Origin: a virus
Virus record (IMG/VR): IMGVR_UViG_3300025949_000070
Coordinates: 1 to 30,505 of that record
Reading direction: 5' to 3' (one strand)
Length of the DNA: 30,505 bases
Both the position numbers and the translations under genes were made by a program. This document shows positions 3,777 through 30,505 of the stretch, one piece after another; positions within the stretch are counted from its first letter, which is position 1; each line of letters begins with the position of its first letter. The notes below the pieces were generated by a model, which saw only the letters and a list, made by a program, of their open reading frames with translations, ran no database searches and was not told the DNA's origin.

Positions 3777-3786
3777 GGGGCGCGCG

Positions 3787-9265: not shown

Positions 9266-9465
9266 GCAATGGCATCATCCTGTCGCCCGCTGAGATCGTC
9301 ACCCTGACCGGCCGTCGTCAGCGCCAGGCCCAGCGCCGCGAGCTCGAACACATGGGCATCGCGTTCCGTGCTCGTTGCGATGGCTCCTTGGTGGTGCTTC
9401 GCAGCGACGTCGAGCGCCACCCCGACCACAAGCCGACGATGCGAGAACCGGAACTGCAGCTGTGA
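9262..9465 (+). CDS. DUF4224-like excisionase-type DNA-binding protein, 67 aa
   Basis: Compact winged-helix-like protein: ILSPAEIVTLTGRRQRQAQR, then RELEHMGIAFRARCDGSLVV and LRSDVERH. This is the DUF4224 pattern ('LS..Ev..LTGr....aQ...L...GI.f....dG.pvVlrs.ve'), a small DNA-binding family that is nearly always encoded immediately upstream of phage tyrosine integrases. By context it may act as the recombination directionality factor or as a regulator of the integrase gene. It starts at GTG overlapping the previous stop; its own stop overlaps the integrase GTG, so the two are translationally coupled. Confidence 0.82.
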   Translation: MSNGIILSPAEIVTLTGRRQRQAQRRELEHMGIAFRARCDGSLVVLRSDVERHPDHKPTMREPELQL

Positions 9466-10454
9466 ACCGCCCGCGGAAGAACAACAAGCACCTGCCCCCG
9501 TGCGTCTATTACAAGCACGGCACGCACTGGTATGTGAAGAAGGGGAAGTGGAGGGACATCGGCAAGACCGTGACCGAAGCGCTCGCTGAATATGCCCGCA
9601 TCATCGAAACCCCTGTGGGTGGAATGCCGGACCTCATCGAGCGGGTTTACAAGCACCACGTCAAGACTGTCTCCGAGAACACGCGCAAGCAGTATCGGCA
9701 GGCCGCCGACGCTCTCAAGAAGGCGTTCCAGCAGTTCTCACCGGCGCAGGTGAAAGCCAAGCACGTCGCGGCGATGAAGCTCGCAGGCGCAGCCAAGCCG
9801 AACATGACCAACCGCAAGCTGTCGTTCCTGCGCACGGTCTTCAACTACGCCGTCGAGTGGCAGGAGGTCGACTCCAATCCATGCGTCGGCATCAAGCGGC
9901 TGCCTGAGCACCAGCGCGACCGATACCTGACCGATGCCGAGGTCGCCGCCATTCGCGGCCAAGCCGGACCGCGTCTGCAGATCATCATCGATCTTCAATT
10001 CTTGACCGGTCAGCGAATCCAGGACGTGCTGAAGATCCGGCGAGCCGATCTCACGGAGCAGGGCATCCTGTTCAAGCAGCAGAAGACGGAGAACAAGCTC
10101 TGCATCGCCTGGAACGATGAGCTGCGCGCTGTGGTGGAGCGAGCCAAGGCCATGCACCCGAAGGTTGCAGCGCTGACGCTGCTCTATGGCCGCACTGGCC
10201 GGGCGCCCGACTACAAGACGGTGCTCAAGCAATGGCACGACGCGCGCATCGCCGCCAAGGTCGAGGACGCGAAGCTGAACGACATGCGTGCCAAGTCGGC
10301 CACAGACGCGGACGAGGCCGGCGTGAACGCCACGGCGCTCCTTGGGCACAGCAGCGCAGCCATGACGAAGAGGTACATTCGACGCCGCAAGGGGGCCGTT
10401 GCGGAAGGCCCGAGTATTAGACAGGTGTTGGACGTTGGACAAAAAAGCAAATAG
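9462..10454 (+). CDS. int: Phage tyrosine integrase
   Basis: 330-residue tyrosine recombinase that should catalyse attP x attB integration and, with a directionality factor, excision. An N-terminal arm-binding region (YYKHGTHWYVKKGKW, an AP2-like strand set) is followed by a core-binding helical domain (about 58-140) and the catalytic domain. Putative catalytic residues are R185 (TGQRIQDVLKIRR), K208 (QQKTENK), R276 (LNDMRAKSATDA), H296 (LLGHSS) and the nucleophile Y305 (MTKRYIRR). The usual first histidine of the HxxR box is asparagine (N273), a tolerated but less common variant. GTG 9462 overlaps the upstream stop; an earlier in-frame start would lie inside the DUF4224 gene. The gene ends 170 bases before the oppositely oriented lysis genes. 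Confidence 0.93.
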   Translation: MNRPRKNNKHLPPCVYYKHGTHWYVKKGKWRDIGKTVTEALAEYARIIETPVGGMPDLIERVYKHHVKTVSENTRKQYRQAADALKKAFQQFSPAQVKAKHVAAMKLAGAAKPNMTNRKLSFLRTVFNYAVEWQEVDSNPCVGIKRLPEHQRDRYLTDAEVAAIRGQAGPRLQIIIDLQFLTGQRIQDVLKIRRADLTEQGILFKQQKTENKLCIAWNDELRAVVERAKAMHPKVAALTLLYGRTGRAPDYKTVLKQWHDARIAAKVEDAKLNDMRAKSATDADEAGVNATALLGHSSAAMTKRYIRRRKGAVAEGPSIRQVLDVGQKSK

Positions 10455-14788: not shown

Positions 14789-14831
14789 CTCACACCTATC
14801 CGCCGGCCCGCCCGGCTTGATAGGCGCAAAT

Positions 14832-14853
14832 TATCAGCGACTAATCGCTGATA
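14832..14853. repeat. Perfect 9-bp hairpin between ejection protein and tail spike
   Basis: TATCAGCGA-CTAA-TCGCTGATA forms a perfect 9-bp stem with a 4-base loop in the 73-base gap upstream of the tail spike gene. There is no following T-run on the minus strand, so it is not a simple rho-independent terminator. It abuts the repeated 16-bp element at 14850-14865. Confidence 0.6.
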
Positions 14854-14865
14854 GTTCAACGCTAT
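14850..14865 (-). repeat. Copy 1 of repeated quasi-palindrome ATAGCGTTGMACTATC
   Basis: On the minus strand the bases read ATAGCGTTGAACTATC, 15/16 identical to the element at 29560-29575. The element begins at the TAG stop of the 2125-residue gene (14862-14864) and runs into the gap before the tail spike. Nearly self-complementary (ATAG...CTAT), so it could bind a dimeric regulator or fold in RNA. Confidence 0.5.
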
Positions 14866-17800
14866 TGCTTTGATTCTGGCGATGCTGTTCCCGACACGAG
14901 GCCGCGCGCCGCATCGACAGGACCTGTGGGATTGACCTTTCCTTCTGAGACGTCCGTTAGGTATCCGATCGGTCGAGCCATAGCGCTGGCTGGCAGGCCG
15001 ACCGTCATGGAGATCAACGTGGCGAGGTCGCGGACTGCCTTCTTGGAACTCCCCTCGCCGGACGCCGCCGCGTACACGGAATGCGGCGCCGACACCGCGC
15101 TCTCGATCATCGAGATGGCGGGACTGGTGCTGATCCGGTCGTCGTAGGGCTTCTTGTTGAAGGTGTTCACTCCGGCGTTGATGACCTGTCCGAGGCCCGG
15201 AAGCATCCCAACACCGGCGCGGAAGGCTCCCATCCCAAGGGCGGAAAGCCAGTCGTCCCAAACCTCACCGTCGCCGTCCTCGTCTTCCGGCCCACCACGG
15301 AAAGCCTGGACGATCGCCTCGCTGACCAGTGCCGGAACCAGGAACCCGAAGGTGAAGATGAACAGGCCACGACCCATACCCTTGCGCAGGCCGAGTTCGT
15401 GATAGGTGTTCGCCATCTCCGTGCCGATCAGGTTGGCCTGCATGTTGAAGTAGCCTGCGAACTGCGTGAACATGCGAGCGAAGGCGCTGCCGGTCTCGAT
15501 CCGTGAGACGTCTTCAGGGAGGGTGCTGCCCTGCGTCTCGCGCACGGCGGAGTCAGCCCTACGGATGGCATCTCGCTCGCTAAGGCCCTGCGTGATGGCA
15601 TCGTTGTAGGCCCCCGTCCAAACGATCGGACCAATCACGTTGTCCACCGCCGACTGAAGGAAGTAGGCGTGCTTTCCGAACCACTGCTGGCTGGACTGCA
15701 GGACGTTCGGGTTGAGCAGGATGTCGCCGATGGCGTCATTCATCTGCGCCACCTCGTTGTCCATGCGAGAGGCCATGTACGTTGAAGCCGATGTCACGGC
15801 GTCAATGGTTGCCTTCGGCTGGGTCAGGAACTGCACCGTGGCAGACATCAGCGACTTCGGTTTGACGCGCAGCGCCGCGATGCTCAGCCCGGTGATCTGC
15901 TGCGCGGCGTTGGCGAAGTTGGCGAACATGGCCGCCATGCCGGCGCGCTGACGCATCAGGGAGAAGAACCGCATCACGCCGTTGGTTCCGGCGATTGGGG
16001 TCTCGACCTGCTGCCGTGCTGCGCGATTGAGCCATGGCGTCAGCAGTCCATCGAAAGCCGTCGGGTCGATGCGATGCAAGGCCGTCGAGACATCGTCGGA
16101 GGTCAGGATCTTGCGGACGTCGCGCACCGGTTGCTCGAGGTGCGTGAACATCAGCACCTTGTCGATGTGCTGCGCCAGCGAGCGCAGGTCCAACAGCAGC
16201 GGCTTGTTGTACTCGACGCGTGCGTTCGTGAATCCCTTGGAGGTGGTCGGGAAGGCGTAGGCCAAAGACTGATTCTCGGCCTCCGCCAGCTCCCTGGTGG
16301 CGGCATCCTTGACGACCTCGGAGTCAGTCATCGCGGGGACGTAGCCGCCGCGGTACTGGCCGAACGGCGTCTCGAAGGAATCGGCCGTCACCTCGTCGAA
16401 GTACGAGCCGAACACGTCTCGGTGAGTCTTCTGGGCGGCCGGCTTCATCTGCTCGAGCAGATCCCAAACGCCCTGCGCGAAGTCGTACTCCGCTTTGCCG
16501 ATCACTCCCGTGTCCTGCATGCGCTTGACGAATCGATCCCAGCGAGAGGTGTCGATGGTTCCGTCCTCGTTCTCGGTCGCCCAGCCGCGTCCGAGCAGCA
16601 ACTTCCGCTTGTTGCTCTCGTTGCCGGTGTGCAGCAGCGCGTGGAGGATCTCCTGCTTTCCGGATCCGCCGCGGCTGAAGCCGAACACATAGCCAAGTTC
16701 AGGAGCCTCGACACGCCCGCGCCCCAACTCGACCGTCTTGAGCAGATCGCGGTACTTGCGCAGATGTCCGCCCTTCTCTGCGCGGTACCGATCTGCTGCT
16801 TCCTTCACCGGCTGCCAAATGTAGGTGCGGAACGGGCCGCTCTGACCGCCGTCCTTGGCGCCAACCCACGATTCAACGCGTCGCAACGCGGCGCCGATGG
16901 TCTGGATCTTGGACAAGCGACGCTCAGAATCGGTGACCGCCATGCCCTCACCGGCCACCCGTGCGGGGATGCCGATCTCCTCCAGTCGGCCCATCAGTTC
17001 GGCTTGGACCATCTCGCGATCGATCAACTTGCCGTCGACCTCGATCTGGCGCAGTCGGCGCGACTGCTGCCACATGCTCTTGAGCTCGTCTGTCAAGCCG
17101 CGAAGCTTCTCGACGCTGACCTCTTGGTATGGCGCTGCGGCCATGGTCATGTTGTCGACGCGATCCTTGAGGATCTGATAGGTCGCCGGATCGTAGGCGC
17201 GGATGTTCTCCAGGTACTCGCCGGCCAGTTGTCCAGGACGCAGACCAACGCCGTACTCTGCGACGATCGCACGCATGGCCATGACCAGGTTGACGTCTCT
17301 GGTCTTGGCGATCGTGTCCTTCGTGCCTTTCTGGATCTGGCGGAAGAACGCGAGCGTCTCGCGGACCTCGTTCTGCACGTCGACCGCCGCCTTGAAGGCG
17401 TAGCCGTTCACCAGTTCGTTGCGCTTCTCCTTCGCCGCCGCGGCGATGTCGTCCTTCGCGAGAGCCTGGGTTGCCGCGCGCGCGGCGCGAGCCTGTGAAG
17501 CGGCGTACTGGTTCGGCCGCACGTCCTTGACCAGCAGCTTCGCGACCATCGCCTCTGCGAATGTCTTCGCCGCCGCCGGCAAAGTCGCCACGGTGCCGCC
17601 CGAGATGTCGGCGTTCTTCCCCTCGCTCCGGACCTTCATCGCCTTCTCAAGCGCCTTCAGTTCCGTCGCAACCGCGCGCTGGCGCGCCTCGTTGAACAGG
17701 GCTTCGTTCACGGCCTTGGCGAGCGCCTCGGGGCTGGTGATGTCGCCATAGCGTTCCAGCATGCGCTGATCGGTCAGTCCCTCAACGGCCTCGTTCGGCG

Positions 17801-20800
17801 TGTCGGCAAGCACCAGCGCGCGGACCAGCTGCTGCCCAGACTGGAAGCCGAACTGCTCGGCAAGCACGTCCGGGTCCATCCCTTCCTTGCTGGCCATGCG
17901 GCGCTTCTGCAGCGCTGCCGCGGCGTCCTTGTCGATGGCCTTGACCGCCTCGGTGCTCAGCTTTCCGACCTCGAATCCCTCAGGCACATCACCCTGTGCC
18001 GACGGCGGCGCTTCCGGCTCTTGGTGGGCGTTGTCCCACTCCAGCATCCGCTGCTGGACGTTGATGTCGATCTGGCGCTTGTTCTTGGCGAGGAACTGGC
18101 CCTTCTGCAACCCCTTCAACTCAGGGTTGGCCGCCAGCATCTTGGCGCGTTCCTCCTTGGCCGCCTGCTCCTCAGCTTCAACCCGGCGCTGGCGGAAGTC
18201 CTTGAGTTCCTTGCGGTACTCGGCCTCGGCCTCCGTGGGCTCAACTGGCTTTGCCACCTTGCCGGTCAGGAACGCCCAGGCGCGGTAGATGGGGGTCGCC
18301 ATCACCTCTGTCCGAACCTCGGACCTGACGGCGCGGCGCTTCTCCGCGGCATCCTTCTGCAGGGCCTTGAGGGTGCGACTGCGCGCGTTGGCGAGCCACT
18401 GCATGTCCCTTAGCGAGCGGGTCTCGAGTTCCGAGATTGCCTGCTCGGTCTGGGCCCGTCCCAGTTCCTGGTACTTGGACCAGTCGAGGCCGAATTGCTT
18501 CGCCTGCTCCGGTGTTTGGAACAGGGCGGCCATGGACTGCGCAGCCTCCGCAGTCTCGATCTCCTGCTCGCTGGCCAGCATGCGGTCCATCACGCCGCGG
18601 ACTTCCTCCGAAAGGGTGACGTTCAGCGACTTGAGCGACTGATAGACGTTCATCAGCCACGCGCGGAAGCGTTGGAACACACCCTGCAATTCCAGGCTCG
18701 GCGCCTTGCCACCGAACAAGTAGGCCTCGAAGCCACGCGCGAACTTCTCATGGCTCTCGCGCTGCTCGTCCAGGCTCATGTCCTGCCAAGTCTGGAGTTG
18801 TGTCTTGCCCTCCGCCGGCTGGATGCCGAACCAGTCTAGGACGGTGGTCAGGTCCTGCTGCACGCCGGGTTCCGCGTTCTCGCGCGCGGCGATGTCGACC
18901 ATGATCTCCAGGAAGGCATGGCCGAACTCATGCAAGGCCGTCGACAGGTCGGCGTTGGCCAACAAGGAGATGGTCAGGTTGCTCGGGCTGAAGGCTCCGC
19001 GCTGACCCTGGGCCAGCGCGCCGGTGGCCTGACCGCGGCCGACAGCCGCCATCGCCGCATTCCGCGTGACGCCCGGGCCGGCCGACATCACCGTCCAGTC
19101 GGTGGCGCCGACGTTGCGCTGCACGATGATCTGGTCGGCGGAGGCATTGGTGTCGACGGCATCAACGCCCACCAGCGGACGGACCTGACCGGTTCGGGTG
19201 TCGACAACGTAGCGCCGACGGCCGAGCGCCCTCTCCTCGCGCAGACGACCTTGTGCCTCCAGGCTTGCGGCACTCTCGCCGCTGGCGTTGTCGGAGATCC
19301 CGAAGGACTCCTCTCCGCTACCACGCATCAGGCTGTCGAGATCACCAAGGTCCAGGATGTCGCCCTGGTTCAGCACGTTGCCTTGCAGGTCCTCGCCTTG
19401 GAGGCGGAGCGGGTACTGGGCGTAGAGTTGCTCCGCCGTCATCCCGAGCCGACCGGCCGTCGTGGCGTAGAAGGCCGAGGCCAGCGCCGCATTTGGCTTG
19501 GCGATGTCCTCGTTGTATCGGCCCGTAGCCAGGATCTGCTGCAGGAAGTTGTCGCGCACCGCATCGCGGCTTGTGCGCGCCGCGTCCGCCGTGTCGCGCC
19601 GAGACAGTTCGGTCTCGACAGCCGAGCGGATCTCTTCTCCGTGGTCCTTGATGAACTGGTCCGCCTCGGTGAGGCTCATCCCTTCAGGATCGGTGCGAAG
19701 GTGAGGGATCAGCTGCTCGGCCAGACCTGCGTCGACCACATTGGCAGCAAACTCTGACACCGGGATTCGGATGTCGGTCCCCGCCGCCGTCGCAGCGTCG
19801 ATCTGATCAGCCACAGCCGGCGAAGCCTCGGCCAGCGCGCGCACGTCGATCCCCGACTGCGCCAGCGCCTGAGGTGCGAGATAGATGTCATGCACCGGTC
19901 CGTTCTCCGTCGCGGAGTCGATGAAGGCCTTGAAGCTCTGCGGATCCCGCTTCTTCACCTTGCTCGCTTCGGAAGCCGCCGCCAGTTGAGTCAGTACCTG
20001 AGCATTTTCCTTGGCCGCCTGGGCGTGCTGCATGCGCTCACGGATGGCCGTGTGTGCAACGCCTGCGGCCTCTGCCGGTGCAGTGAAGGCCTCACCGACA
20101 ACTTCCGCCAGGATGTTCCCAGGGCTGATGTCCTGGCCGGCAGCCAGTTCACCGCCTAGTTCACCGAGGCCGCCAAGCAGTCCCTGGACCGGCGTCTGCA
20201 CGCCCATGTTCGCGATCTCGCGCGCCAGTGGCCGGGCAGCCAGCTTCGTTGCGACACGACCGGGCAGCAGCACCTTCCCCGCCAGACCTCCGCTGATCGC
20301 ATCGAGAGTGCCAACGACGCCGGCATGAGCGAAGGCCTGGGCCGTTGCTCGACGCATCAGCGCCTGATCCTTGGATGCAGCGACCAGCGCGTCCGGGCTG
20401 TTTAGATCGACGCCTTCCTTCTGGAGCGCCTCCATCAGCGTAGCGCCGTAGTCGACAGCAAATGACCCACCACCCATAGCCGCAGCGCCAGCGGCCGGGC
20501 CTGCTACCACAGCTGCTCCGATGCCAGGGACACTCTGGATCAGACTCTCCGGTCCGATGTTGGCGACGAACTTGACCGGGTCGGTAGAGAACGCCGAGAT
20601 GGCATCGCCGAATCCCTTGGCATCCATCACCCGCTGGACGACTGGATCCGAAGGGAGCTGGTTCTTCTCGCCCTGAGTCGACACGATGGTCCCGACCTCA
20701 CGCACATCGGCGCCACGCATGCCGGCAATGCGTTCACGGAGTCCATCGTTAGAGATGGTAGCAAGGCCAGGATCTTCACGTCCACGGCCAGCGGCGCGCT

Positions 20801-21239
20801 CCGACAACTCTCGCTCCAGGCGTGCGACGCTGGACTGGCGGGCGCCGATGGCCAGGGCCGACAGGTTCTGCTTCAGGCTGGGGATGCCGCGCTTGAACGA
20901 GTTGACCAATCCCTCTGTCAGACTCATCCCGTCAACATCGTCATGCGCGATCTGGGCATTGTTGACGTCCGAGAGATACCGGGTGGTCGACGGGAAGCGC
21001 ACGGCGAGGTCGTTGAAGTCGACCGTATTCAGCGCTGCAGTACGCTTCACCTCATCCGGGATGGACTTGGCAGTGTCCAGCGGCACTCCGGCGCGCTGAG
21101 CCAGGCGGCGGAACTCCGCCTCCTGGTCAGGCTGCGCGGCCACACCGACAGCCATGCTGGTGCGGACCTGTGTATCAGGCTTGCGTCCGGCGATATAGCG
21201 AGAAACCGCGCCAGCAGTATCGAGAGTATCTTCGTCCAT
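14862..21239 (-). CDS. Giant ejection/internal virion protein (T7 gp16 position) with zincin motif
   Basis: 2125 residues, far longer than T7 gp16 (about 1320), placed exactly where T7 encodes its largest ejection protein. It is expected to be packaged inside the capsid and injected at the start of infection. Visible parts: helical N-terminus; a glycine/alanine-rich hydrophobic stretch (about 225-260, VPGIGAAVVAGPAAGAAAMG) suited to membrane insertion; a zinc-peptidase motif H770-E771-F-G-H774 with a downstream HEKFARGFEAYL in which E838 may be the third ligand; long charged coiled-coil regions (about 960-1250); and a C-terminal region with hydrophobic GLFIFTFGFLVPALVSEAIV and SALGMGAFRAGVGMLPGLGQ. 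The zincin plus 'ARGFEAYL..G' combination is known from phage polyvalent proteins. No transglycosylase motif is evident here. Overlaps the upstream gene as TGATG. Confidence 0.82.
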   Translation of the reverse strand: MDEDTLDTAGAVSRYIAGRKPDTQVRTSMAVGVAAQPDQEAEFRRLAQRAGVPLDTAKSIPDEVKRTAALNTVDFNDLAVRFPSTTRYLSDVNNAQIAHDDVDGMSLTEGLVNSFKRGIPSLKQNLSALAIGARQSSVARLERELSERAAGRGREDPGLATISNDGLRERIAGMRGADVREVGTIVSTQGEKNQLPSDPVVQRVMDAKGFGDAISAFSTDPVKFVANIGPESLIQSVPGIGAAVVAGPAAGAAAMGGGSFAVDYGATLMEALQKEGVDLNSPDALVAASKDQALMRRATAQAFAHAGVVGTLDAISGGLAGKVLLPGRVATKLAARPLAREIANMGVQTPVQGLLGGLGELGGELAAGQDISPGNILAEVVGEAFTAPAEAAGVAHTAIRERMQHAQAAKENAQVLTQLAAASEASKVKKRDPQSFKAFIDSATENGPVHDIYLAPQALAQSGIDVRALAEASPAVADQIDAATAAGTDIRIPVSEFAANVVDAGLAEQLIPHLRTDPEGMSLTEADQFIKDHGEEIRSAVETELSRRDTADAARTSRDAVRDNFLQQILATGRYNEDIAKPNAALASAFYATTAGRLGMTAEQLYAQYPLRLQGEDLQGNVLNQGDILDLGDLDSLMRGSGEESFGISDNASGESAASLEAQGRLREERALGRRRYVVDTRTGQVRPLVGVDAVDTNASADQIIVQRNVGATDWTVMSAGPGVTRNAAMAAVGRGQATGALAQGQRGAFSPSNLTISLLANADLSTALHEFGHAFLEIMVDIAARENAEPGVQQDLTTVLDWFGIQPAEGKTQLQTWQDMSLDEQRESHEKFARGFEAYLFGGKAPSLELQGVFQRFRAWLMNVYQSLKSLNVTLSEEVRGVMDRMLASEQEIETAEAAQSMAALFQTPEQAKQFGLDWSKYQELGRAQTEQAISELETRSLRDMQWLANARSRTLKALQKDAAEKRRAVRSEVRTEVMATPIYRAWAFLTGKVAKPVEPTEAEAEYRKELKDFRQRRVEAEEQAAKEERAKMLAANPELKGLQKGQFLAKNKRQIDINVQQRMLEWDNAHQEPEAPPSAQGDVPEGFEVGKLSTEAVKAIDKDAAAALQKRRMASKEGMDPDVLAEQFGFQSGQQLVRALVLADTPNEAVEGLTDQRMLERYGDITSPEALAKAVNEALFNEARQRAVATELKALEKAMKVRSEGKNADISGGTVATLPAAAKTFAEAMVAKLLVKDVRPNQYAASQARAARAATQALAKDDIAAAAKEKRNELVNGYAFKAAVDVQNEVRETLAFFRQIQKGTKDTIAKTRDVNLVMAMRAIVAEYGVGLRPGQLAGEYLENIRAYDPATYQILKDRVDNMTMAAAPYQEVSVEKLRGLTDELKSMWQQSRRLRQIEVDGKLIDREMVQAELMGRLEEIGIPARVAGEGMAVTDSERRLSKIQTIGAALRRVESWVGAKDGGQSGPFRTYIWQPVKEAADRYRAEKGGHLRKYRDLLKTVELGRGRVEAPELGYVFGFSRGGSGKQEILHALLHTGNESNKRKLLLGRGWATENEDGTIDTSRWDRFVKRMQDTGVIGKAEYDFAQGVWDLLEQMKPAAQKTHRDVFGSYFDEVTADSFETPFGQYRGGYVPAMTDSEVVKDAATRELAEAENQSLAYAFPTTSKGFTNARVEYNKPLLLDLRSLAQHIDKVLMFTHLEQPVRDVRKILTSDDVSTALHRIDPTAFDGLLTPWLNRAARQQVETPIAGTNGVMRFFSLMRQRAGMAAMFANFANAAQQITGLSIAALRVKPKSLMSATVQFLTQPKATIDAVTSASTYMASRMDNEVAQMNDAIGDILLNPNVLQSSQQWFGKHAYFLQSAVDNVIGPIVWTGAYNDAITQGLSERDAIRRADSAVRETQGSTLPEDVSRIETGSAFARMFTQFAGYFNMQANLIGTEMANTYHELGLRKGMGRGLFIFTFGFLVPALVSEAIVQAFRGGPEDEDGDGEVWDDWLSALGMGAFRAGVGMLPGLGQVINAGVNTFNKKPYDDRISTSPAISMIESAVSAPHSVYAAASGEGSSKKAVRDLATLISMTVGLPASAMARPIGYLTDVSEGKVNPTGPVDAARGLVSGTASPESKQ

Positions 21240-23311
21240 CAGCGGAGCTTCAGTTGAAGGTATGCGCCCAGGATGTCGCCATCCGATGGGGATTGAACGC
21301 CGTTGGCCTTGAAGTCGGCCTTGAGCTTCTCTCGTACAGCTGGCGGGATGTCGCCCGCCTGCATGGTCAGGAGCCGTTCAGAGGAATCCGTCACGCCGCC
21401 GAAGAATCCAGTCGTACGGAATTGGACCTTCCTTGCGATCGCCTGATCAATGGTCTTGGCCATCATGGCGTCGTCGAACTTCTTTCCGGCCTGCTGTTGC
21501 TGCTGTAGCACGTAACTCTGAACCGCGTTGCGAATGGCACCCACCCGCTGCTGTCCAGCCTTGTCACGATCCGGAGGCGTCGGGTCGATGCCCATCTGGT
21601 TCAGTCTCGAGTTCAACGTCGAGTTCAGCGAAGCGAAGTCGACATCGCCAGGGCCGTTTCCACCCTTGCCGCTAATCAGTTGCCCGCGGCGCAGCGCCAT
21701 CTGCTGTTGATCCGCCTGGGAGAGCTTGCGCGACTGCCAGTAGAACTCTGCGTCGGACATTCCCTTCAGCCACTTATCGTCCGTGGCCATCTTCTGGAAC
21801 ACGATCGGATCCGTCTGATCCTCTCCTTTGGCTACCCGCGCGCCGAAGTTCAGCAGGTCATCCACCTTCCCTGCCGGGACGGCATTGCGAACCGACGGCG
21901 GCAGAGCGTTCCACGAGCCGCCGTTTTGCGCCAAGCCTCGCTGCGCGGTGGCAAGCGCTTCATCCTCTCGCTGCTTGATCTCATCGGTCTGTTCCTTGAA
22001 GAGACGAGTCGATTCGTCTAGCGCGACCTTGATGCGCTCGGGGCGTTGGCCGACCAGGGTGCGGCGCACGTTGTCATGCACCTCCTTGAGGGTCGGACGC
22101 TGCGGGGCGCCGCCTCCGGCATCTAGCGCCGCCATGTTCTTGGCGACGTAGGCCTGGGTCTCCTGGGGAAGGAAGATCGTCCACTCCGGATCGCCCTGTT
22201 CCTTGGCGGTAGCCAGAGCCTCATCAACCCGGCCAGGGCCAGCGTTGTACGCAGCCCATGCCTTCGACATGTCACCGCCGTATCGCTTGATCATGGCGTT
22301 GAGGTAGTCACGTCCGACGCGCGCACGTTCGTCCGGGCTGTTGTCCTTGGCCGCCTTCACACCGAACCCAGGATCCAGGTTGGTGGAGTCCATGACCTGC
22401 ATCTCGCCCTTGGCGCCGGCAGAGCTCGTGAGTAACTTCCCATCCGTGCCGTACCGACGACCACCGGACTCCGAAGCCATGGTGATGTTCATCACCCGGT
22501 CCAGGTCTGTTGGCTGCATGTTGGGCTGGATGGCTCCGATCACAGCGTGAGCCGCGGCAGTTCCTTCGACGGAATCCTCCTGTTTCTGGATCTGGTTGCT
22601 AAGCCGCAGGACGGCGGCCGGGTTCATCGCCTCGGCGTTCTTGTCGAGGTAGCCCTTTGCTGCCTTCCAGTTGTCGCCGGCCAGCAGCGTGTCAAGCACC
22701 GCCACGTGCGTCTTCTCGTCCTGATTTCGGATGGTCTGTGCGATCTCTTCTTCGCTGCGACCTTTGCTGCGGAGGTATCCGATCGTGCGCGCGGCGCCCG
22801 TGGCCATCTCCGCCTTCACTCGCGCTGGATCACCGGCGAACCGGGCTGCACGGTCATGAACGGACTGGATGTCGGCCTCAAACTGTCCTCGATCGTAGGT
22901 GTCCTTCTCGCGCTGAACGTGGCGATCAGTCCAGTCCAGAACCTGATTGCGGCGCGAAGCGGAGAGTTCACGGAAGGCGCGACGCTGGCGCTCAGAAGTG
23001 AGTCCTTCTCCGATCTTCGCGGACGCCTCGTCGAACGACTTGGGGATCGCCTCCTGCAGTCCAAACGAGTCCTGCCCCAATTTGTTGATGGCGCCGTTGT
23101 CCGGATCGTAGATTGCGGACCGTTCCCAATCGTCCAGCTGCCGACGCGCGCTGAACACAGCTTGGGCATCAGCCTCCTTCGCAAGCTGGTCGACGGCGCC
23201 GGCCACACTTCCAAGCGCCTGACCGATGCCACCGTCATTGACCGACGCGATAGAACGCTGCGATCGCGGCGCAGCGCGCGCGACGGTATCGAGGGATGGG
23301 AGGCGAGGCAT
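21239..23311 (-). CDS. Ejection protein with lytic transglycosylase domain (T7 gp15 position)
   Basis: 690 residues, close to T7 gp15 in length and order. Residues 1-260 are helical (SVAGAVDQLAKEADAQAVFS, ELSASRRNQVLDW). Residues about 270-390 form an SLT/goose-lysozyme-type transglycosylase domain: catalytic E281 in MASESGGRRYG, GEMQVM at 302-307 and AYNAGPGRVDEA at 354-365. This domain cuts peptidoglycan glycan strands so the ejection channel can cross the cell wall. In T7 the transglycosylase is on gp16, so here it has moved to the gp15-like protein. The C-terminal half is helical and glutamine rich. Overlaps both neighbours (TGATG). Confidence 0.87.
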   Translation of the reverse strand: MPRLPSLDTVARAAPRSQRSIASVNDGGIGQALGSVAGAVDQLAKEADAQAVFSARRQLDDWERSAIYDPDNGAINKLGQDSFGLQEAIPKSFDEASAKIGEGLTSERQRRAFRELSASRRNQVLDWTDRHVQREKDTYDRGQFEADIQSVHDRAARFAGDPARVKAEMATGAARTIGYLRSKGRSEEEIAQTIRNQDEKTHVAVLDTLLAGDNWKAAKGYLDKNAEAMNPAAVLRLSNQIQKQEDSVEGTAAAHAVIGAIQPNMQPTDLDRVMNITMASESGGRRYGTDGKLLTSSAGAKGEMQVMDSTNLDPGFGVKAAKDNSPDERARVGRDYLNAMIKRYGGDMSKAWAAYNAGPGRVDEALATAKEQGDPEWTIFLPQETQAYVAKNMAALDAGGGAPQRPTLKEVHDNVRRTLVGQRPERIKVALDESTRLFKEQTDEIKQREDEALATAQRGLAQNGGSWNALPPSVRNAVPAGKVDDLLNFGARVAKGEDQTDPIVFQKMATDDKWLKGMSDAEFYWQSRKLSQADQQQMALRRGQLISGKGGNGPGDVDFASLNSTLNSRLNQMGIDPTPPDRDKAGQQRVGAIRNAVQSYVLQQQQQAGKKFDDAMMAKTIDQAIARKVQFRTTGFFGGVTDSSERLLTMQAGDIPPAVREKLKADFKANGVQSPSDGDILGAYLQLKLR

Positions 23312-23835
23312 CAGCGACGAGCCCTCACGTCAGAGCCGGCGGCGGAGAACTTCGCCCCACTGGCATCGTTGTTGTAGTTGTACTTCGCGCCACCACCGAA
23401 CATCGAGGAGATGTCGCCGAAGCCCGTGAGGATGGAAGGGATCGCCTTGATGCGCGAAGCCCGCTTTGCGTTCTTCCCGCTTGCCCGCACAGCGCCGGCT
23501 TGCTGCTCATCAGAGCGAGCCTGCTCCTCGCCTTCGTACAGCGACGTCAGGGCGCGGTATTCGCCCTCGCCAGCGATGTCGCTGGCGAGCTTGACCATGG
23601 TTTCGTCGCCACCACCCCCTCCGCCCAGCGCCTGGAGTCGCGACAAAGCTAGTCTGGATTGACGGCGATCCTCAATGGACTGGCGTTGAGCCGTCGCGCG
23701 TGACTGTCCTGCCCGTTGCTCAAGCTGCGCGGCCTGATAGCCGGCGGACTTGTCTGCCGCATTGCCTTCAAGGATTGGCGCAACCGTCTGCAGAACGGTC
23801 GATGCGACCGGGAGAAAGGCAGCAAATTCAGCCAT
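23311..23835 (-). CDS. Internal virion/ejection protein (T7 gp14 position), 174 aa
   Basis: Short alanine/glutamine-rich protein. The N-terminus AEFAAFLPVASTVLQTVAPI is a hydrophobic helix fit for outer-membrane or membrane association; a long helix with QAAQLEQRAGQSRATAQRQS, a glycine run (LGGGGGGDETMVKLASD) and a C-terminal IPSILTGFGDISSMFGGGAK follow. T7 gp14 forms the outer-membrane part of the ejection channel and has a similar size and composition. ATG 23835 is chosen because it overlaps the GNAT-like gene stop by 8 bases; five upstream codons in frame are not needed. Identity is by synteny and composition more than by motif. Confidence 0.72.
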   Translation of the reverse strand: MAEFAAFLPVASTVLQTVAPILEGNAADKSAGYQAAQLEQRAGQSRATAQRQSIEDRRQSRLALSRLQALGGGGGGDETMVKLASDIAGEGEYRALTSLYEGEEQARSDEQQAGAVRASGKNAKRASRIKAIPSILTGFGDISSMFGGGAKYNYNNDASGAKFSAAGSDVRARR

Positions 23836-24169
23836 GGCGCCAGACCTCACTCGTGACTTGTTGGAAGCCCAGATGACTCAGGAGCCCAGGGGATGTTGGT
23901 TCACGGCTGTCGCAGATAGCGAACACCGGGCCTCGGCAGGCCGCCAGCAACTGACCGAAGGCGATGGCCAGCCGAGTCAGTGCCACCTTGTGCTTTCGGC
24001 TCTCGTCACGGATCTCGCTGAAGGCCTGCATTCCGTCTGCACCTTGGGCCAGCCCAGCGATTGCAGTCACTCGCCCATCTTGCTCAAGAACAACGGCTCG
24101 CATGGTCGACGGAACGCGTCCGTTGAACCAGACGGCGACGTCTTCTCTGGTCGCGAATCGGATCGTCAT
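23828..24169 (-). CDS. GNAT-fold protein (T7 gp13 position), 113 aa
   Basis: Reads as a small GNAT acetyltransferase-like fold: TIRFATREDVAVWFNGRVPS, a strand ending in AVVLEQDGRVTAIAGLAQGA, a helix RKHKVALTRLAIAFGQLLAA, and a C-terminal strand-helix SPGLLSHLGFQQVTSEVW. The 'F/L L...LGF' ending is typical of GNATs and of T7 gp13. The acetyl-CoA loop (Q/R-x-x-G-x-G/A) is not clearly preserved, so catalysis is doubtful. In T7, gp13 is needed for virion assembly and not for acetylation. ATG 24169 overlaps the gp12-like stop (ATGA); the gene sits in the same slot as T7 gene 13. Confidence 0.72.
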   Translation of the reverse strand: MTIRFATREDVAVWFNGRVPSTMRAVVLEQDGRVTAIAGLAQGADGMQAFSEIRDESRKHKVALTRLAIAFGQLLAACRGPVFAICDSREPTSPGLLSHLGFQQVTSEVWRHG

Positions 24170-26805
24170 GAGTGGTTCGCCATGGTGATTACCGCCGAGG
24201 TGACCGTGGCCGGCCGAGGCGATGCTGCCCGCAGGAACAGGCGGGCGTCGTTGTCCCAAGAACCATCCATCGGGACGACGTCCTTGTCGTACTCGCTCCA
24301 GACCTGGTTGACGTCGATCTCAAATCCATCTTCAACCTGCGGCATATCGTTGAGCTCATCGAGCCGCTGGCCGAACTGGACCCCTTGCGCGTGTGTATCG
24401 ACCAGCACCAGACCCAGCGCATTCAGCCGCTTGCTGGTATGCAGACCGGACTTCCCGGGTGGAACGACATAGGCCATCTTGGTCGACTTGAAGATCGCCT
24501 CATAGAAGAGGCCAACGCAGACGCTCGCGTAGGTTCCCGGCAAAGCGACGTTGCCGGAACCGTCAACGATGGCGGTGCCGACGTCGTTTCCATCCGCCCA
24601 GATGGTGACCTGACGGTTGATCAGGTGTGGCGCGCTCACCGAGGAACCAGAACCCATCACGAACGAGTCGGCGATCTTGTTGGTGACGCCGCCGCGGGCT
24701 TCGCTCTCCAGCGCCCACTTCTCGAGGTATCGGACGACAACACCCTGCACCTCGCGTCTGACGGCGTAGTAGACGGCATCCTCTTCCACGCCGGGGAGCA
24801 CGGCCACGTCTTCGACAACGCCGTCTGTCTGGATCGTGACCCAGCACAGCAGGTTCTCCGTTCGGTCGATGATCAGGACCGCCACAGTGCCATCAGCCAG
24901 CCACACGTGCAGCCGGGTGTCGGGCTGGCGTTGGATCTTGATCCCCACGACACCTGCTGAGCACAGGTCCGGAACCAGAGCAGTAAGGTCGCTCTCGTCG
25001 TACTCGCGCGCGGAGTTGCCGTAGCTCATCTGATAGAGCCGGGACAGGCAGCGCTGGACGAAGATCCCACTACCGTCGATCTCCTGTGCCGGGATGGCTG
25101 CCGTTCCTTGGGTGCCGGTCTTCTTGGGCGTGAAGTTGGTCGGCGTCAGTGGTTCATCCAGCGCGGACGACCGGCAAGCCAACTCCATGCTGTCCGTCCC
25201 GGCCACGAGCCGATCCAGCGAGATCAGCCAGTTGATGCTGTCGACCGGCCCGAATCCGATGGATCTCGAGATGGGCCCGGCATCTCCTTCGAAGTCCGGA
25301 TCGAACGACTCGAAAGCATCCGTCACCGATCCGTTGAACTTGTCCTTGCCGCACCACCACAGCCGTCCGTCATGGATGGCGACAGCAGACGGCCAGCCGC
25401 GGAAGTCCGACCACAGTCCCTCGGCCCAGGTGTCGGTGGCAGTCAGACCGCCGAGCGGACTCAGTACCTCAGCCGATACAGACGTCGGGCTGATGTACGC
25501 GGTGATCCTCACGACACCAGTGATCGAGCCGCTGGCGTAGCTCAACGTCGTCGTTGCGGTTCCGCTCGTGTAGTCACCCGTCTTGATGCCGACGCGGTAG
25601 TAGATGATCTGGTTGTCCAGTCCATCGTTGTACGACTTGCTGCCCACCCCGGTGTACGTCTCGCCGGGGACATCCTGCCAGGTTCCAGGAGACCCAACGG
25701 ACCGTTGCAGCGTCAGGTTCGCGACAAACGTTCCAGAGTTGACGATCGAGAATGCGCGGGCGTCACCAACTCCGGTGATGCGGATCGGGTCGCCGAAGGT
25801 ATTTGCCGCAGACAGCGATGTCGTCACGATCTGACCGACTGACGTTAGGGAGAAGAGCGCTCCAACGTGGCCGGGCGCGAACACATCCGACGACGCAGTA
25901 ATTGAGATGTTGCCGCTCAGGCCGGTTGCCGTCAGCGTGGTCGGTGTGGTGTTCTGAACTCGGAACGGACCGTCGACCGGCTGGTAAAGCGTCACGGACC
26001 AAGAGCCATTCGATCGACGCTCGATCTTGCGTTGCTGGTATCCGCGGCACGCAAGGAAAATCACGTCACCCGACTGAATGGCCCGCAGGTACTGCAGGTC
26101 GGCGGCTGCATATGGGGTCGGTAGAGTCATCGCTCCAGCCGCCTCGATTGCAATGCTGTCAATCAGCACCTGACGCGACGTCCGGCTTCGGAACTGGAAG
26201 AAGAAGCTGGCCCCTGTGGTCGGGATCACAATGCTGTGCGTACCTGCGCCCAGCGTCGTGTCGCGCAAAAATTGAGTTCCGCCCGAAACGGATCCGGCCC
26301 GGATCGTTACCGAACCTCTCGTCACGACGATGCGGACCGCTTGGTCCCCGGCCGCTGCGACGACCTGCTGTTCACGGATGGCATAGTTGGTTCCGTCACC
26401 TGTGAGACCCATGAATCCGCCGGCCACCCAGATGGACGTCGCGCCAGCTTGGTCAAGGTCCGTCCACCCGGACAGGTCAGTGTTGAAAGTTCCGTTGGTG
26501 AAGGCTGAGCCGTTGGCAGGGCGAGTCACCAGAGCGTCGTCCTTCCAAACCCTCAGTTGCCCGGCCGACATCTCGATCAGGGCTGTGTCCTGCGCCGAGA
26601 AGATGAACTCGATCAGTTTTTCCTGGCCAGGGAAAGCGCCGAGGTAGCCGAGCCCCGGGCGAAGCATCATCGACCCCAGCGCGCGCGGCATCCAGTTGCG
26701 CTGGATTTCGGCGCTGAACTTCATCTTGTTCAGGTCGATGCGCGACAGAGCCAGCCGCGACACGACGCCGCGGTTGAACGCCAGGATCTCGTGGTCTCCT
26801 CTCAT
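24166..26805 (-). CDS. Tail nozzle protein (T7 gp12/tubular protein B-like)
   Basis: 879 residues, predominantly beta. The N-terminal GDHEILAFNRGVVSRLALSR and MPRALGSMMLRPGLGYLG form the conserved opening of podovirus tail nozzle proteins ('N.G..s......R.dl..y......N..p...G....RpG..y'). Similar later signatures are DALIEMSAGQLRV-like strands, RLWWCGKDKFNGSVTDAFES and STALVPDL-type repeats leading to a C-terminal KMAYVVPPGKSGLHTSKRLN region. A possible inserted carbohydrate-type sandwich lies between about residues 100 and 220 (FTNGTFNTDLSGWTDL onward). The nozzle closes the tail and conducts DNA. Order relative to the gp11-like gene is as in T7. The ATG overlaps the preceding stop (ATGA). Confidence 0.83.
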   Translation of the reverse strand: MRGDHEILAFNRGVVSRLALSRIDLNKMKFSAEIQRNWMPRALGSMMLRPGLGYLGAFPGQEKLIEFIFSAQDTALIEMSAGQLRVWKDDALVTRPANGSAFTNGTFNTDLSGWTDLDQAGATSIWVAGGFMGLTGDGTNYAIREQQVVAAAGDQAVRIVVTRGSVTIRAGSVSGGTQFLRDTTLGAGTHSIVIPTTGASFFFQFRSRTSRQVLIDSIAIEAAGAMTLPTPYAAADLQYLRAIQSGDVIFLACRGYQQRKIERRSNGSWSVTLYQPVDGPFRVQNTTPTTLTATGLSGNISITASSDVFAPGHVGALFSLTSVGQIVTTSLSAANTFGDPIRITGVGDARAFSIVNSGTFVANLTLQRSVGSPGTWQDVPGETYTGVGSKSYNDGLDNQIIYYRVGIKTGDYTSGTATTTLSYASGSITGVVRITAYISPTSVSAEVLSPLGGLTATDTWAEGLWSDFRGWPSAVAIHDGRLWWCGKDKFNGSVTDAFESFDPDFEGDAGPISRSIGFGPVDSINWLISLDRLVAGTDSMELACRSSALDEPLTPTNFTPKKTGTQGTAAIPAQEIDGSGIFVQRCLSRLYQMSYGNSAREYDESDLTALVPDLCSAGVVGIKIQRQPDTRLHVWLADGTVAVLIIDRTENLLCWVTIQTDGVVEDVAVLPGVEEDAVYYAVRREVQGVVVRYLEKWALESEARGGVTNKIADSFVMGSGSSVSAPHLINRQVTIWADGNDVGTAIVDGSGNVALPGTYASVCVGLFYEAIFKSTKMAYVVPPGKSGLHTSKRLNALGLVLVDTHAQGVQFGQRLDELNDMPQVEDGFEIDVNQVWSEYDKDVVPMDGSWDNDARLFLRAASPRPATVTSAVITMANHS

Positions 26806-27440
26806 CGGTCACCCGCCCGGCGGTAGCGTTGACCACTGAAGCGAGACTTGACCCAGCTTCCAGGCGGCGGGAACTTGGTCGGCTCCTCCATCGCGTCGCG
26901 GGCCAGGGCGGCCTTCAGAACGATGCGATCGCGCTTGGCCTCGAGCTTGTCCTGCAGGTTGTCGTCCTGCGTCAGCGGCTTGGCTACCTTGGCAGCAAGA
27001 TGGATCTCGACGAGCTCGATGAAGCTTTGCGGCCATAGCGAGAAGTCACCACCGCAGGACTCGTCATCCGACACGTACCGGACATACATCGTCTCCAGGT
27101 TGCCCCATAGGAACCCACCCTCTTCGCGATAGTCCAGGTACGGAACTTTCATGCTCTCGTCCTGAAACACACCGGCAAGACGCACCAGGTCATCCGGCAG
27201 GTTGAACGCGTACTGCAAGCCAGGGAACCCCGGCTCGACGCTGGGCGAGTAGTCCAGCTGGACGGAGCGCATGGCGAATTTCCACTGCCCCTTCTCCAGG
27301 CACCACTTCACCGCATCGTTATTCCAGGCCGTGTCCAGGTACCGGCGCGCGGCTTCGTTCACCGTCAGGTTGGCGATTGCGCGTTGGCCCAGGTGGTTGA
27401 CCAGGGCGCCGTTGTAGAGCTGGATACGGCTGGTGGTCAT
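26802..27440 (-). CDS. Tail tubular protein A (T7 gp11-like)
   Basis: 212 residues, close to T7 gp11 (196). RIQLYNGALVNHLGQRAIAN, then EAARRYLDTAWNNDAVKWCL and EKGQWKFAMRSVQLDYS match the adaptor family pattern ('iyN.AL...G......l.d....a..l...wd.....lLe...W.FA'). The end of the protein is a helix plus basic tail (DKLEAKRDRIVLKAALARDA). In T7-like particles this protein forms the adaptor ring between the portal and the nozzle. It is followed directly by the nozzle gene with overlapping stop/start, as in T7. Confidence 0.86.
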   Translation of the reverse strand: MTTSRIQLYNGALVNHLGQRAIANLTVNEAARRYLDTAWNNDAVKWCLEKGQWKFAMRSVQLDYSPSVEPGFPGLQYAFNLPDDLVRLAGVFQDESMKVPYLDYREEGGFLWGNLETMYVRYVSDDESCGGDFSLWPQSFIELVEIHLAAKVAKPLTQDDNLQDKLEAKRDRIVLKAALARDAMEEPTKFPPPGSWVKSRFSGQRYRRAGDR

Positions 27441-27442
27441 GC

Positions 27443-27763
27443 TCAGTCCTTGGCCGCTTCAGCAGCTTTTTGAGCTTGGCCGGTCTGGTAAGGCATCCAC
27501 TGCGCATAGGCCTCACCATCGGGCGGCATATCGCCTTCCTGAATGAGCAGGATGTTGAGTCTCGGCCACGCCCGGCCAATCGCGTCAACGACCAGCAGGT
27601 TGATCCGGTCGGCGCCGTGCACGCCAACGATGGTCGCGTCCAATGGCTGGAAGCCTTCACCATCGATATCAGGCAGAAGCGCCAGCGACCGGTAGCCCTG
27701 GCGCTCCGCTTCGCTCGGGCGGTACCAGATCTTGCGCCCGACAGTTGGATTGATCGTGGTCAT
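27443..27763 (-). CDS. Hypothetical virion-region protein, 106 aa
   Basis: Small alpha/beta protein with an N-terminal TTINPTVGRKIWYRPSEAER, a central ATIVGVHGADRINLLVVDAI strand pair and a C-terminal alanine-rich helix. 'INPTVGR..WY.P' followed by 'a.I..V....vNL.V.D..G' is a common small protein of unknown role that I recall from phage genomes. It lies between capsid and tail genes with a two-base gap to the gp11-like gene. Function unknown. Confidence 0.7.
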   Translation of the reverse strand: MTTINPTVGRKIWYRPSEAERQGYRSLALLPDIDGEGFQPLDATIVGVHGADRINLLVVDAIGRAWPRLNILLIQEGDMPPDGEAYAQWMPYQTGQAQKAAEAAKD

Positions 27764-27764
27764 G

Positions 27765-28190
27765 TCAGGCCTTCTCGTGTTCCGTGATCCAGGCGTTGGC
27801 CGTCTTCTTGTCGGAGAAGCCGTCCTTCAGGACCTCGCCGTCGGCCTTGCGAATAACGCGGTGCTTCTGATGCGGTCCGCCCCAGTTCACGACGTAGGCC
27901 GACTCCTTGCCAGAGTCGCCGGCAGGCTCGGTGGGAACCAGTTCCGTGAACTGAAGAACGTGGAACTTGGCGAAGTTTCGACCGCAGTCCTTCACCATCA
28001 GTTCGGCATACCAAGACTGGTCGGCCGGCGTGACTTCGAGGATGTCGCTCACGCGAAGCTGGGCCGCGATGTGCTGCGTTGCTTCCTCTTTCAGAACGTC
28101 TTCCAGTGTGCTTTCCGGCTCGACCGTCACGGAATAGCGCGTGCGCACACTATCTGCCAGAGAGAACTGCGAACGGGTGATGGGTTTCAT
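27765..28190 (-). CDS. Hypothetical virion-region protein, 141 aa
   Basis: Not recognised. The start at ATG 28190 follows GGAG five bases away; upstream codons in the same frame run through the terminator and are non-coding. The sequence is TRSQFSLADSVRTRYSVTVE, then an acidic helix (DVLKEEATQHIAAQLRVSD), a strand-rich middle (WYAELMVKDCGRNFAKFHVL) and a C-terminal KADGEVLKDGFSDKKTANAW module with a W-containing helix, a pattern seen in small DNA-pairing or head-associated phage proteins. It is the first gene after the capsid-operon terminator, so it probably needs read-through or its own promoter. Confidence 0.66.
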   Translation of the reverse strand: MKPITRSQFSLADSVRTRYSVTVEPESTLEDVLKEEATQHIAAQLRVSDILEVTPADQSWYAELMVKDCGRNFAKFHVLQFTELVPTEPAGDSGKESAYVVNWGGPHQKHRVIRKADGEVLKDGFSDKKTANAWITEHEKA

Positions 28191-28205
28191 GTGGACTCCA
28201 GTTGG

Positions 28206-28239
28206 AAAAAAGCCGACGCCTTCCTTGGATGGCGTCGGC
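28206..28239 (-). terminator. Rho-independent terminator downstream of capsid genes
   Basis: On the minus strand a perfect 9-bp stem GCCGACGCC / GGCGTCGGC (28212-28220 and 28231-28239) with a 10-base loop is followed immediately by six T residues (28206-28211). It lies 33 bases after the 96-residue gene. A textbook intrinsic terminator, placed to limit read-through from the highly expressed capsid genes into tail genes. Confidence 0.88.
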
Positions 28240-28272
28240 GCGGGTGACCCACAAGGGATCAAGGAGGAGACA

Positions 28273-28563
28273 TCAGTCGGTGTTCGTGGCCGCGCCGATG
28301 ACGGTGCCGTCGCCAAGGTCCACGGAACCCGGCGAAACGGTGCCCACGGAGACCACGCGGTGATCGGTGATCACACCGGTGCCGGTCACGGTGACCTCGA
28401 CCAGGTCACCCACCTTCATGCCCAGATCCAGGCCGTTGGTGATGTAGCCGGCAGTGTCGACCGTCGCCACGGTGTCGGCAGTGGAGTAGGTCCAGGTCTG
28501 GCCCGCTCCGTACAGTCCGCCGTTGGACTTGAGTCGCGGCGGGGTTGCGGTGGAATACGGCAT
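28273..28563 (-). CDS. Putative capsid-associated (decoration-type) protein, 96 aa
   Basis: All-beta small protein: PYSTATPPRLKSNGGLYGAG, then QTWTYSTADTVATVDTAGYI, LGMKVGDLVEVTVTGTGVIT and HRVVSVG. The pattern 'W.Y.t.D....V...GY......lGmkvGD.v.V' is common immediately downstream of major capsid genes in podoviruses and siphoviruses and is thought to be a head decoration or stabilising protein. ATG with AAGGAG ten bases upstream. The gene lies 15 bases after the capsid gene and just before a strong terminator, so it is co-transcribed with capsid. Confidence 0.66.
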   Translation of the reverse strand: MPYSTATPPRLKSNGGLYGAGQTWTYSTADTVATVDTAGYITNGLDLGMKVGDLVEVTVTGTGVITDHRVVSVGTVSPGSVDLGDGTVIGAATNTD

Positions 28564-28578
28564 TTCGTTCTCCTTGGG

Positions 28579-29415
28579 TCAGGCGGTCGCGGCGATGCCG
28601 GAACCGTCGTGGCGGATCGAGACTACGCCGCTGTTCTGCAGCAGCTTCGGTCCCATGTAGGCAGAGCAGCGGGCCCACGAGTAGTCCTGCTCCTCGTCGT
28701 ATCCGACCGGCGACTGGATGCCCTTGACGTCCATGCCGTGGCCGATGGCCGACTTGTGGTAGACGAACAGGCGCTCGTTCGCGGTGCCGTTGCCCGGCAG
28801 GGCGGTGTGGACCATCCAAATCACGCCGGCCCAGCGGAAGCGGATGGGCGCGTCGACCAGCTTGGTGTCGTTGACGTAGTCCTTGGAGGTGACCTCCTTG
28901 ACCTGCATCAGGTACGCCCAGGCCGCCGGAGTCAGCAGGCCGGAGATGTTGCCGTCGATGGGAACGTTGTTGTTGCCCAGGATGGCGATGGCTTGCAGCG
29001 CCTTGGCGATGCTCAGCGTTGTCGGCGCGACACCAGCGTACAGCGTGCCGGTGGCGAGTTCGCTGATGATCTGGTCGTCCACCTTGCGGTTGATGACGGC
29101 CATGGTCGTGTCCTGCATGGCGGCGCGCTGGTCGCCCTGGGACGCGAAGACGTTGTAGTTCGTCTTCTTGGCCAGGTCGTGCCACTCGGTCAGCGGGCAG
29201 GTGTACTGCGTGTTGTTGTCCGTGCGCGCCGGGATCAGGCCGTTCACGCCGCGCGTCACCGCGCTGGCGCCGCCGGAGTCGATCACGTCGAAGACGATGG
29301 AATTGCCCTTGATGACCCCTTCCGTGGTCACCGTCTGGCGGAGGAGGGATTGCCGACGCTCGAAGCCCTGGATGAGCTCCTGTCGGTACTGTGTCTGGAA
29401 TGCGGTATCAGCCAC
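28579..29415 (-). CDS. Major capsid protein
   Basis: 278 residues with the profile of a podovirus major capsid protein (HK97 fold group): AFQTQYRQELIQGFERRQSL, VIKGNSIVFDVIDSGGASAV, TRGVNGLIPARTDNNTQYTC, EWHDLAKKTNYNVFASQGDQ and MAVINRKVDDQIISELATGT are a continuous match to the recalled family pattern ('Q....E....Ferr.S.L...V.te....G....F......G.a..RG.nG.iP'). The product assembles into the icosahedral shell around the scaffold. GTG start, with AAGGAG eight bases upstream, a strong ribosome site. Follows scaffold and precedes the decoration-type gene, the normal head order. Confidence 0.88.
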   Translation of the reverse strand: MADTAFQTQYRQELIQGFERRQSLLRQTVTTEGVIKGNSIVFDVIDSGGASAVTRGVNGLIPARTDNNTQYTCPLTEWHDLAKKTNYNVFASQGDQRAAMQDTTMAVINRKVDDQIISELATGTLYAGVAPTTLSIAKALQAIAILGNNNVPIDGNISGLLTPAAWAYLMQVKEVTSKDYVNDTKLVDAPIRFRWAGVIWMVHTALPGNGTANERLFVYHKSAIGHGMDVKGIQSPVGYDEEQDYSWARCSAYMGPKLLQNSGVVSIRHDGSGIAATA

Positions 29416-29482
29416 GGTGTGGACTCCTTGAGATTGAGGTTTGCGCCTCGCTCGGGGTGTCTTGTGGCTGATCCGTCGGGGT

Positions 29483-29515
29483 GCCCTGAAGGGGCCGACT
29501 GACCCGCTTCAGGGC
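29483..29515. repeat. Hairpin in capsid leader
   Basis: GCCCTGAAG (29483-29491) and CTTCAGGGC (29507-29515) are perfectly complementary, with an inner GGG/CCC extension. It lies in the 164-base gap between scaffold and capsid genes. No T-run follows on the minus strand, so it may be an mRNA-stabilising leader structure or a processing site and not a terminator. Confidence 0.6.
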
Positions 29516-29528
29516 CTCGCTGCGGCAA

Positions 29529-29577
29529 ATAGCTTTCAGCTATCGCAGCGAGTTTAGCGATAGCGTTGCACTATCGC
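29529..29577. repeat. Clustered inverted repeats after scaffold gene, contains copy 2 of 16-bp element
   Basis: Directly after the scaffold stop, CTATCGC/GCGATAG occurs three times (29540-29546, 29557-29563, 29571-29577). The inner pair GCGATAG-cgttgca-CTATCGC is a 7-bp inverted repeat, and ATAGCT-TTC-AGCTAT (29529-29543) is another. ATAGCGTTGCACTATC at 29560-29575 is 15/16 identical to the element near 14850 in the other orientation. Possible regulator-binding cluster upstream of the capsid gene. Confidence 0.55.
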
Positions 29578-29579
29578 AA

Positions 29580-30505
29580 TCATTTCTTGAGGCGCTCCTT
29601 CGCACCCAGCAGTTCGCGGTAGCGCTTCTGCTGCGCTTCGTCCTTCCAGTAGGCGGGGTTCCGCGTCCCATCCGCTTGGTACTGCATGGCTTCAATCTTC
29701 GCGATCTCCTGATCGACGGACTCCAGGCGGTCGCCGCCGGCCGGGGTGACGGTGCCGCCCGTGAAGCCCATCTCGCGCGCATGCCCGGCCAGCCACTTCA
29801 CGACGGCCGGGTTGTTCATGAGCGCGCGGCCATCGGGACCACGGGCATGACTGATCGCCTCAGCGATGTCGTTGCCGGCGTTGCTCAGCAGGGAGCGGAT
29901 GCCATCGACGTTCTTGCGGTACTCGCCGCCCCAGTCCTGCCGGAGCGTGTCTTCGACCTCGGTCTTGTTGGCCTCGTCCATCTCCTGACGCTGGATGGCC
30001 GCCGCCTCGGTCATCTTGAGGTAGGTCTCGACGCCAGCCTTGACCATCGCAGGCGAGGCGTTCTGTCCATGCATCGCTGCGACGAACTGGTCCACGAGGG
30101 GCTTGTCGTCGTCCCCGATCACCAGGCCGTTGTCGAACTTGAGTTCGTAGCCTTCCGGCTTTTCCGGGATGCCCTGCTCTTGGCGCCACGCGGCCAGTTC
30201 TTCCGGCGTCGCGTCCTTCTTCAGCAACGAACGGAGCTCACCTTTGCTGATCTTGAGGTTGAGTTCACGAAGAGCCTTGCCGGCCGCAGCCGGGTCGGTG
30301 TAGCGCTCGAAGAGCTTCTGCGCCTTTTCGTCGTCGCCGGCCATCTGCTTGCGCCAGTCTTCCGGCCAGGTCTGCTTCGGCGGTTCGGGCGGATTGGCGG
30401 GCGGGCTCGGCGGAGCGCCTGCAGGCGGTTCATTCGCGGGCGGGTTGCTCGGCGGTGTACCGGTTGGCGGCGGCGGGTTGCCAGCGCCGGCCGGCGCTGG
30501 CAACC
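29580..30505 (-). CDS. Capsid scaffold protein (5'-truncated)
   Basis: Read on the minus strand, the frame is open to the end of the window, so the true N-terminus is missing; a TTG at 30503 is not a convincing start. About 309 residues are visible. The first 45 are extremely proline/alanine rich (NPPPPTGTPPSNPP...), followed by WPEDWRKQMAGDDEKAQKLF, a helical PEELAAWRQEQGIPEKPEGYEL segment with an acidic GDDDKPLVDQFVAAMHGQN, and a long helical, charged C-terminus ending LLGAKERLKK. The 'P..W.......d......l.ry.....A..AL.......' to 'W....G.P..P.gY.l' pattern is typical of podovirus scaffold proteins, which guide capsid assembly and then leave. It lies directly upstream of capsid. The terminal 30 bases form a perfect palindrome, so the first 5-10 residues may be artefactual. 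Confidence 0.8.
   Translation of the reverse strand, partial: LPAPAGAGNPPPPTGTPPSNPPANEPPAGAPPSPPANPPEPPKQTWPEDWRKQMAGDDEKAQKLFERYTDPAAAGKALRELNLKISKGELRSLLKKDATPEELAAWRQEQGIPEKPEGYELKFDNGLVIGDDDKPLVDQFVAAMHGQNASPAMVKAGVETYLKMTEAAAIQRQEMDEANKTEVEDTLRQDWGGEYRKNVDGIRSLLSNAGNDIAEAISHARGPDGRALMNNPAVVKWLAGHAREMGFTGGTVTPAGGDRLESVDQEIAKIEAMQYQADGTRNPAYWKDEAQQKRYRELLGAKERLKK
30476..30505. repeat. Perfect 30-bp palindrome at the window end
   Basis: The last 30 bases are perfectly self-complementary: the 15-base arm GGTTGCCAGCGCCGG is followed without a spacer by its reverse complement. It lies within the proline-rich part of the scaffold frame and ends exactly at the last base of the window. An assembly fold-back is the simplest explanation; a real hairpin-type end is the alternative. 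Confidence 0.85.

Follow-up and report, generated by a model that had tools for sequence, protein, structure and literature searches.

In phages of the N15 type, the protelomerase target, like the hairpin telomere, is a perfect palindrome centred at the would-be end. Viral records classed as linear are those without end repeats, and these are often fragments of a longer genome.

Palindromic joins are also described among sequencing artifacts. In the available part of PMC8458033, a mechanism described for fixed tissue, short reverse complementary regions let single strands pair, and the paired strands are filled in at end repair, giving artifact chimeric reads. With regard to assembly, the portion of the PRICE paper that was available states that palindromic k-mers complicate the graph, with no more on them there.

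Here, we analyzed the right end of a viral record classed as linear, referred to as the window (the whole stretch of DNA under study, 30,505 bp). Like an N15-type hairpin telomere, the window presents a perfect palindrome centred on its would-be end; unlike at such a telomere, further genome sequence follows the site, and two records, both possibly incomplete, yielded no resolvase. Judging from the sequences compared below, the terminal palindrome is almost certainly a fold-back (inverted) assembly chimera at the contig end, in which bases 30497-30505 are false. As in the artifact chimeras covered by the available text of PMC8458033, for which an inverted repeat is one possible product, a short self-complementary stretch would have joined single strands, which were then filled in. 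In contrast, that source deals with read-level artefacts in fixed-tissue libraries, while here the join is deduced from a metagenome contig end. The features involved are collected in Table 1.

Table 1 Features at the right end of the window.
Feature	Position	Strand	Remarks
Major head protein gene	28579..29415	-	Served as query for relatives
Scaffold-like gene (named by position), 5' end cut	29580..30496	-	Adjoins the major head protein gene; start in L003 at L003:3920
30-bp perfect palindrome	30476..30505	.	Right contig end; sequence check and simulations
Genuine 12-bp self-complementary core, CGCCGGCCGGCG	30485..30496	.	Also in L003; putative fold-back pivot
Nine bases, almost certainly false	30497..30505	.	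Reverse complement of 30476-30484; second record differs here

A perfect palindrome closes the contig

Window positions 30476-30505 (GGTTGCCAGCGCCGGCCGGCGCTGGCAACC) read the same on both strands: the palindrome is perfect over its 30 bp, lacks a spacer and runs up to the last base, which confirms the self-complementarity that a preliminary description had pointed out at the end of the sequence. That description had also considered chance an unlikely source, and our results agree: among the other perfect palindromes of at least 14 bp in the window, four measure 14 bp and the longest, a single one, 16 bp, and the longest palindrome in each of 200 sequences simulated from the window with a first-order Markov model measured 12-22 bp, never 30. 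For 15 positions to pair at a single specified site, the probability is 2.9e-9 given the base composition of the window. A chance origin was rejected, as the simulations top out at 22 bp.

At the left end of the window the terminal palindrome is just 2 bp long. The exact 30-mer was absent from all contigs scanned in the viral collection (the window's own record possibly lay outside the scan). That the palindrome reaches the last base is no second coincidence, because any fold-back yields one that ends at the contig end.

A second record of the same virus reads through the site

IMG/VR was searched with the scaffold-like protein of the window, and the sole relative obtained was locus L003, from IMGVR_UViG_3300005563_000062 (39,773 bp). 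This record is 100% identical to window positions 13349-30496, over 17,148 bp, and runs 22,625 bp beyond the site, through a normal start of the scaffold gene and past the gene for the head-to-tail connector, which lies farther upstream (L088:1939-3549). L003 itself matches window 25583-30496 at 100%, with zero mismatches or gaps, and the divergence falls exactly at 30497. The two records extend each other and jointly cover ~53 kb by arithmetic, so the right end of the window lies in the interior of the genome. A 28-base probe taken from window 30469-30496 (minus strand) was present in just one record of the viral collection, that from which L003 comes, with the same proviso about the window's own record. 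Neither end of IMGVR_UViG_3300005563_000062 carries a terminal palindrome, and the end region of the window (28401-30505) had zero matches in the phages collection.

The preliminary description had favored an assembly fold-back or chimera, and the departure of L003 at 30497, inside the scaffold gene, supports that preference. It had further held that a smooth continuation through the site would dispose of a hairpin and an artefact alike. The first half of this statement stands; the second does not, because the smooth continuation lies in another assembly and not in this contig, so that an artefact survives it.

The alternative offered in the same description was genuine hairpin-ended DNA; a linear phage genome would then end in a covalently closed telomere, like those of N15-like phages. 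Such an end would explain a perfect terminal palindrome, and the window does contain a tyrosine recombinase gene (9375-10454). However, this recombinase (scanned over 9423-10451) matches an ordinary phage integrase, the site is inside a gene, and the second record goes on for some 22.6 kb where a genome end would have stopped. The telomere resolvase PF16684 was detected in 0 of the 2 records, both possibly incomplete, which does not by itself show its absence. The read-through refutes a hairpin at this site unless two phage forms coexist, and we therefore assign this explanation almost no probability. A real DNA end at the terminal palindrome is very improbable.

The breakpoint falls on a natural self-complementary core

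In L003, palindromy at this site is confined to the central 12 bases, CGCCGGCCGGCG; this all-G+C core falls in the proline-rich first part of the scaffold gene. Comparison of the window with L003 resolves the long palindrome into the natural 12 bp plus nine mirrored bases. Thus, the sequence past the pivot (30497-30505) mirrors 30476-30484; L003 has at this place a different, gene-consistent sequence leading to a normal gene start; and the short self-complementary stretch at the breakpoint is present in L003 as well. Palindromes of at least 12 bp centre on 9 of the 30,505 positions of the window, the terminal one counted. Since the pivot sits exactly on one of them, we infer pairing through the core and not random joining. 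The base-exact breakpoint depends on one other record (L003), and the gene order on several.

One could also envisage a virus variant with a real 30-bp palindrome that defeated the assembler, so that the contig breaks off there although the true sequence goes on beyond 30505; halting at a palindrome of k-1 is indeed what a de Bruijn walk did in a toy simulation (see below). This would require a change of nine bases that by coincidence produced a mirror of the flank (~7.6e-6 from composition) in records otherwise identical over 17,148 bp, the overlapping one of which lacks the 30-bp palindrome, and the changed bases would alter the scaffold protein. We consider such a variant very unlikely.

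The scaffold-like gene has a normal start in the second record

The gene at 29580..30496 is called a scaffold gene by its position beside the major head protein gene. It belongs to phrog_3742, a PHROG without a named function, and its protein had zero matches in Pfam. In L003 the sequence AAGGAG precedes the ATG of the gene, whose product has 331 aa, versus 307 aa in the window, and matches window residues 4-307 of 307 at 100%. The suspicion in the preliminary description that the N-terminus of the scaffold protein is partly wrong was therefore well placed.

Relatives of the virus were used to examine the same region. L004, whose head protein is 90% identical, aligns to L003 3374-6735 at 77% identity; the alignment is a single collinear one with 119 gap positions and spans the site. 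When only L003 3300-4300 is compared, L004 matches 3374-3908 and 4124-4300, and the proline-rich linker between them, which holds the breakpoint, is unaligned. The start motif of L003, YQ(D/E)E, precedes the scaffold match, in the same frame, in L004, L005, L049, L063, L068 and L070, and is missing from the window version of the gene. The motif scan covered 81 loci and returned 20 rows, of which 7 were at the scaffold start (L003 counted) and 13, located elsewhere or dissimilar, were dropped; a narrower pattern matched L003 alone. That the frame stays open between the motif and the scaffold match was read directly for L004 and L005; for the other four, the frame follows from coordinate arithmetic.

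A model for the formation of the terminal palindrome

How might the nine bases have been added? We hypothesize that two single strands ending in the 12-bp G+C core annealed through it during library preparation or amplification, and that filling in of the annealed strands produced fragments turning back on their own sequence. In the length model given in the available part of PMC8458033 (lognormal, u 1.8, sigma 0.55), 12 bp lies in about the upper tenth by our arithmetic. The assembler would then have followed the fold-back reads nine bases past the core and halted on re-entering its own k-mers, a stopping rule that we infer.

When fold-back reads were walked in a toy de Bruijn graph, the path ended in a terminal palindrome of exactly k-1 for 8 of the 8 k values tried, and of 30 at k=31. 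The k-1 rule is taken from this toy walk. The length of 30 in the window is no more than a hint of an assembly at k=31. In the partial texts covered by our literature searches, we found no paper for the k-1 rule under de Bruijn hairpin or palindrome ends and palindromic k-mers, and nothing on point under chimeric or fold-back metagenome contigs.

The natural self-complementary core could equally have served template switching in the cell. In that case the contig would have sampled a rare inverted dimer or defective genome, a minor head-to-head inverted form of the phage joined at the 12-bp G+C palindrome of the scaffold gene. The 30-mer is in no other viral contig, and an origin in the library needs no biology; we regard in vivo inversion as extremely improbable, and favor a fold-back made during library preparation or amplification.

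Fold-back ends among control contigs

The control drew on 150 loci and used the hand-picked stretches that reach a contig end (103, plus L136); the other 46 loci were left out, their stretch not reaching the contig end. This gave 157 ends, 155 of them distinct, since L004/L145 and L082/L142 are the same contigs and each pair shares one end. Among these 155 ends the longest spacer-free terminal palindrome was 8 bp, and the maximum was also 8 bp in a smaller set consisting of both locus ends of 52 loci (63 of them contig ends). A looped fold-back was present at 1 of the 155 control ends, that of L039, and the same 15-base test, applied to 31,200 points drawn at random from the partly overlapping loci, found 0 fold-backs. 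On this comparison, fold-back ends appear to be a recurring artefact of contig ends.

The L039 fold-back occupies L039:6024-6079, the first bases of IMGVR_UViG_3300025012_000538, where 18-bp inverted arms enclose a 20-nt loop and end at the first base of the contig. It sits in a tail protein gene, and the protein homology stops at the turn, at residue 84 or 87 of 99 (12 of 12 among the relatives listed). We interpret it as a putative second contig-end artefact. In contrast to the end of the window, it does not fit a k-1 stop at k=31, and its 18-bp arm is left unexplained by that rule.

The finding is mainly a caution: its cause is very probably ordinary, and it reflects no real feature of the end of the phage genome. 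Before a palindrome that closes a metagenome contig is taken for a hairpin end, overlapping records should be consulted. In the present record, annotation of the scaffold gene start should disregard the final nine bases (30497-30505).

Other content of the window

A single open frame of 2,125 aa occupies window 14862-21239 (-). Residues 745-2121 of its product match phrog_9880, of unknown function, with an E value of 0; from its position, our guess would be a large internal virion protein. At the other end of the window, positions 3-1444 (+) encode an Erf-like annealing protein and a RecE-like exonuclease. A search of the window for tRNA genes, as a possible attachment site, returned 0 genes. 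The Erf-like and RecE-like genes and that of the tyrosine integrase (9375-10454, +) are opposite in strand to the head and tail genes. From its annealing, exonuclease and integrase genes, the phage is probably temperate.
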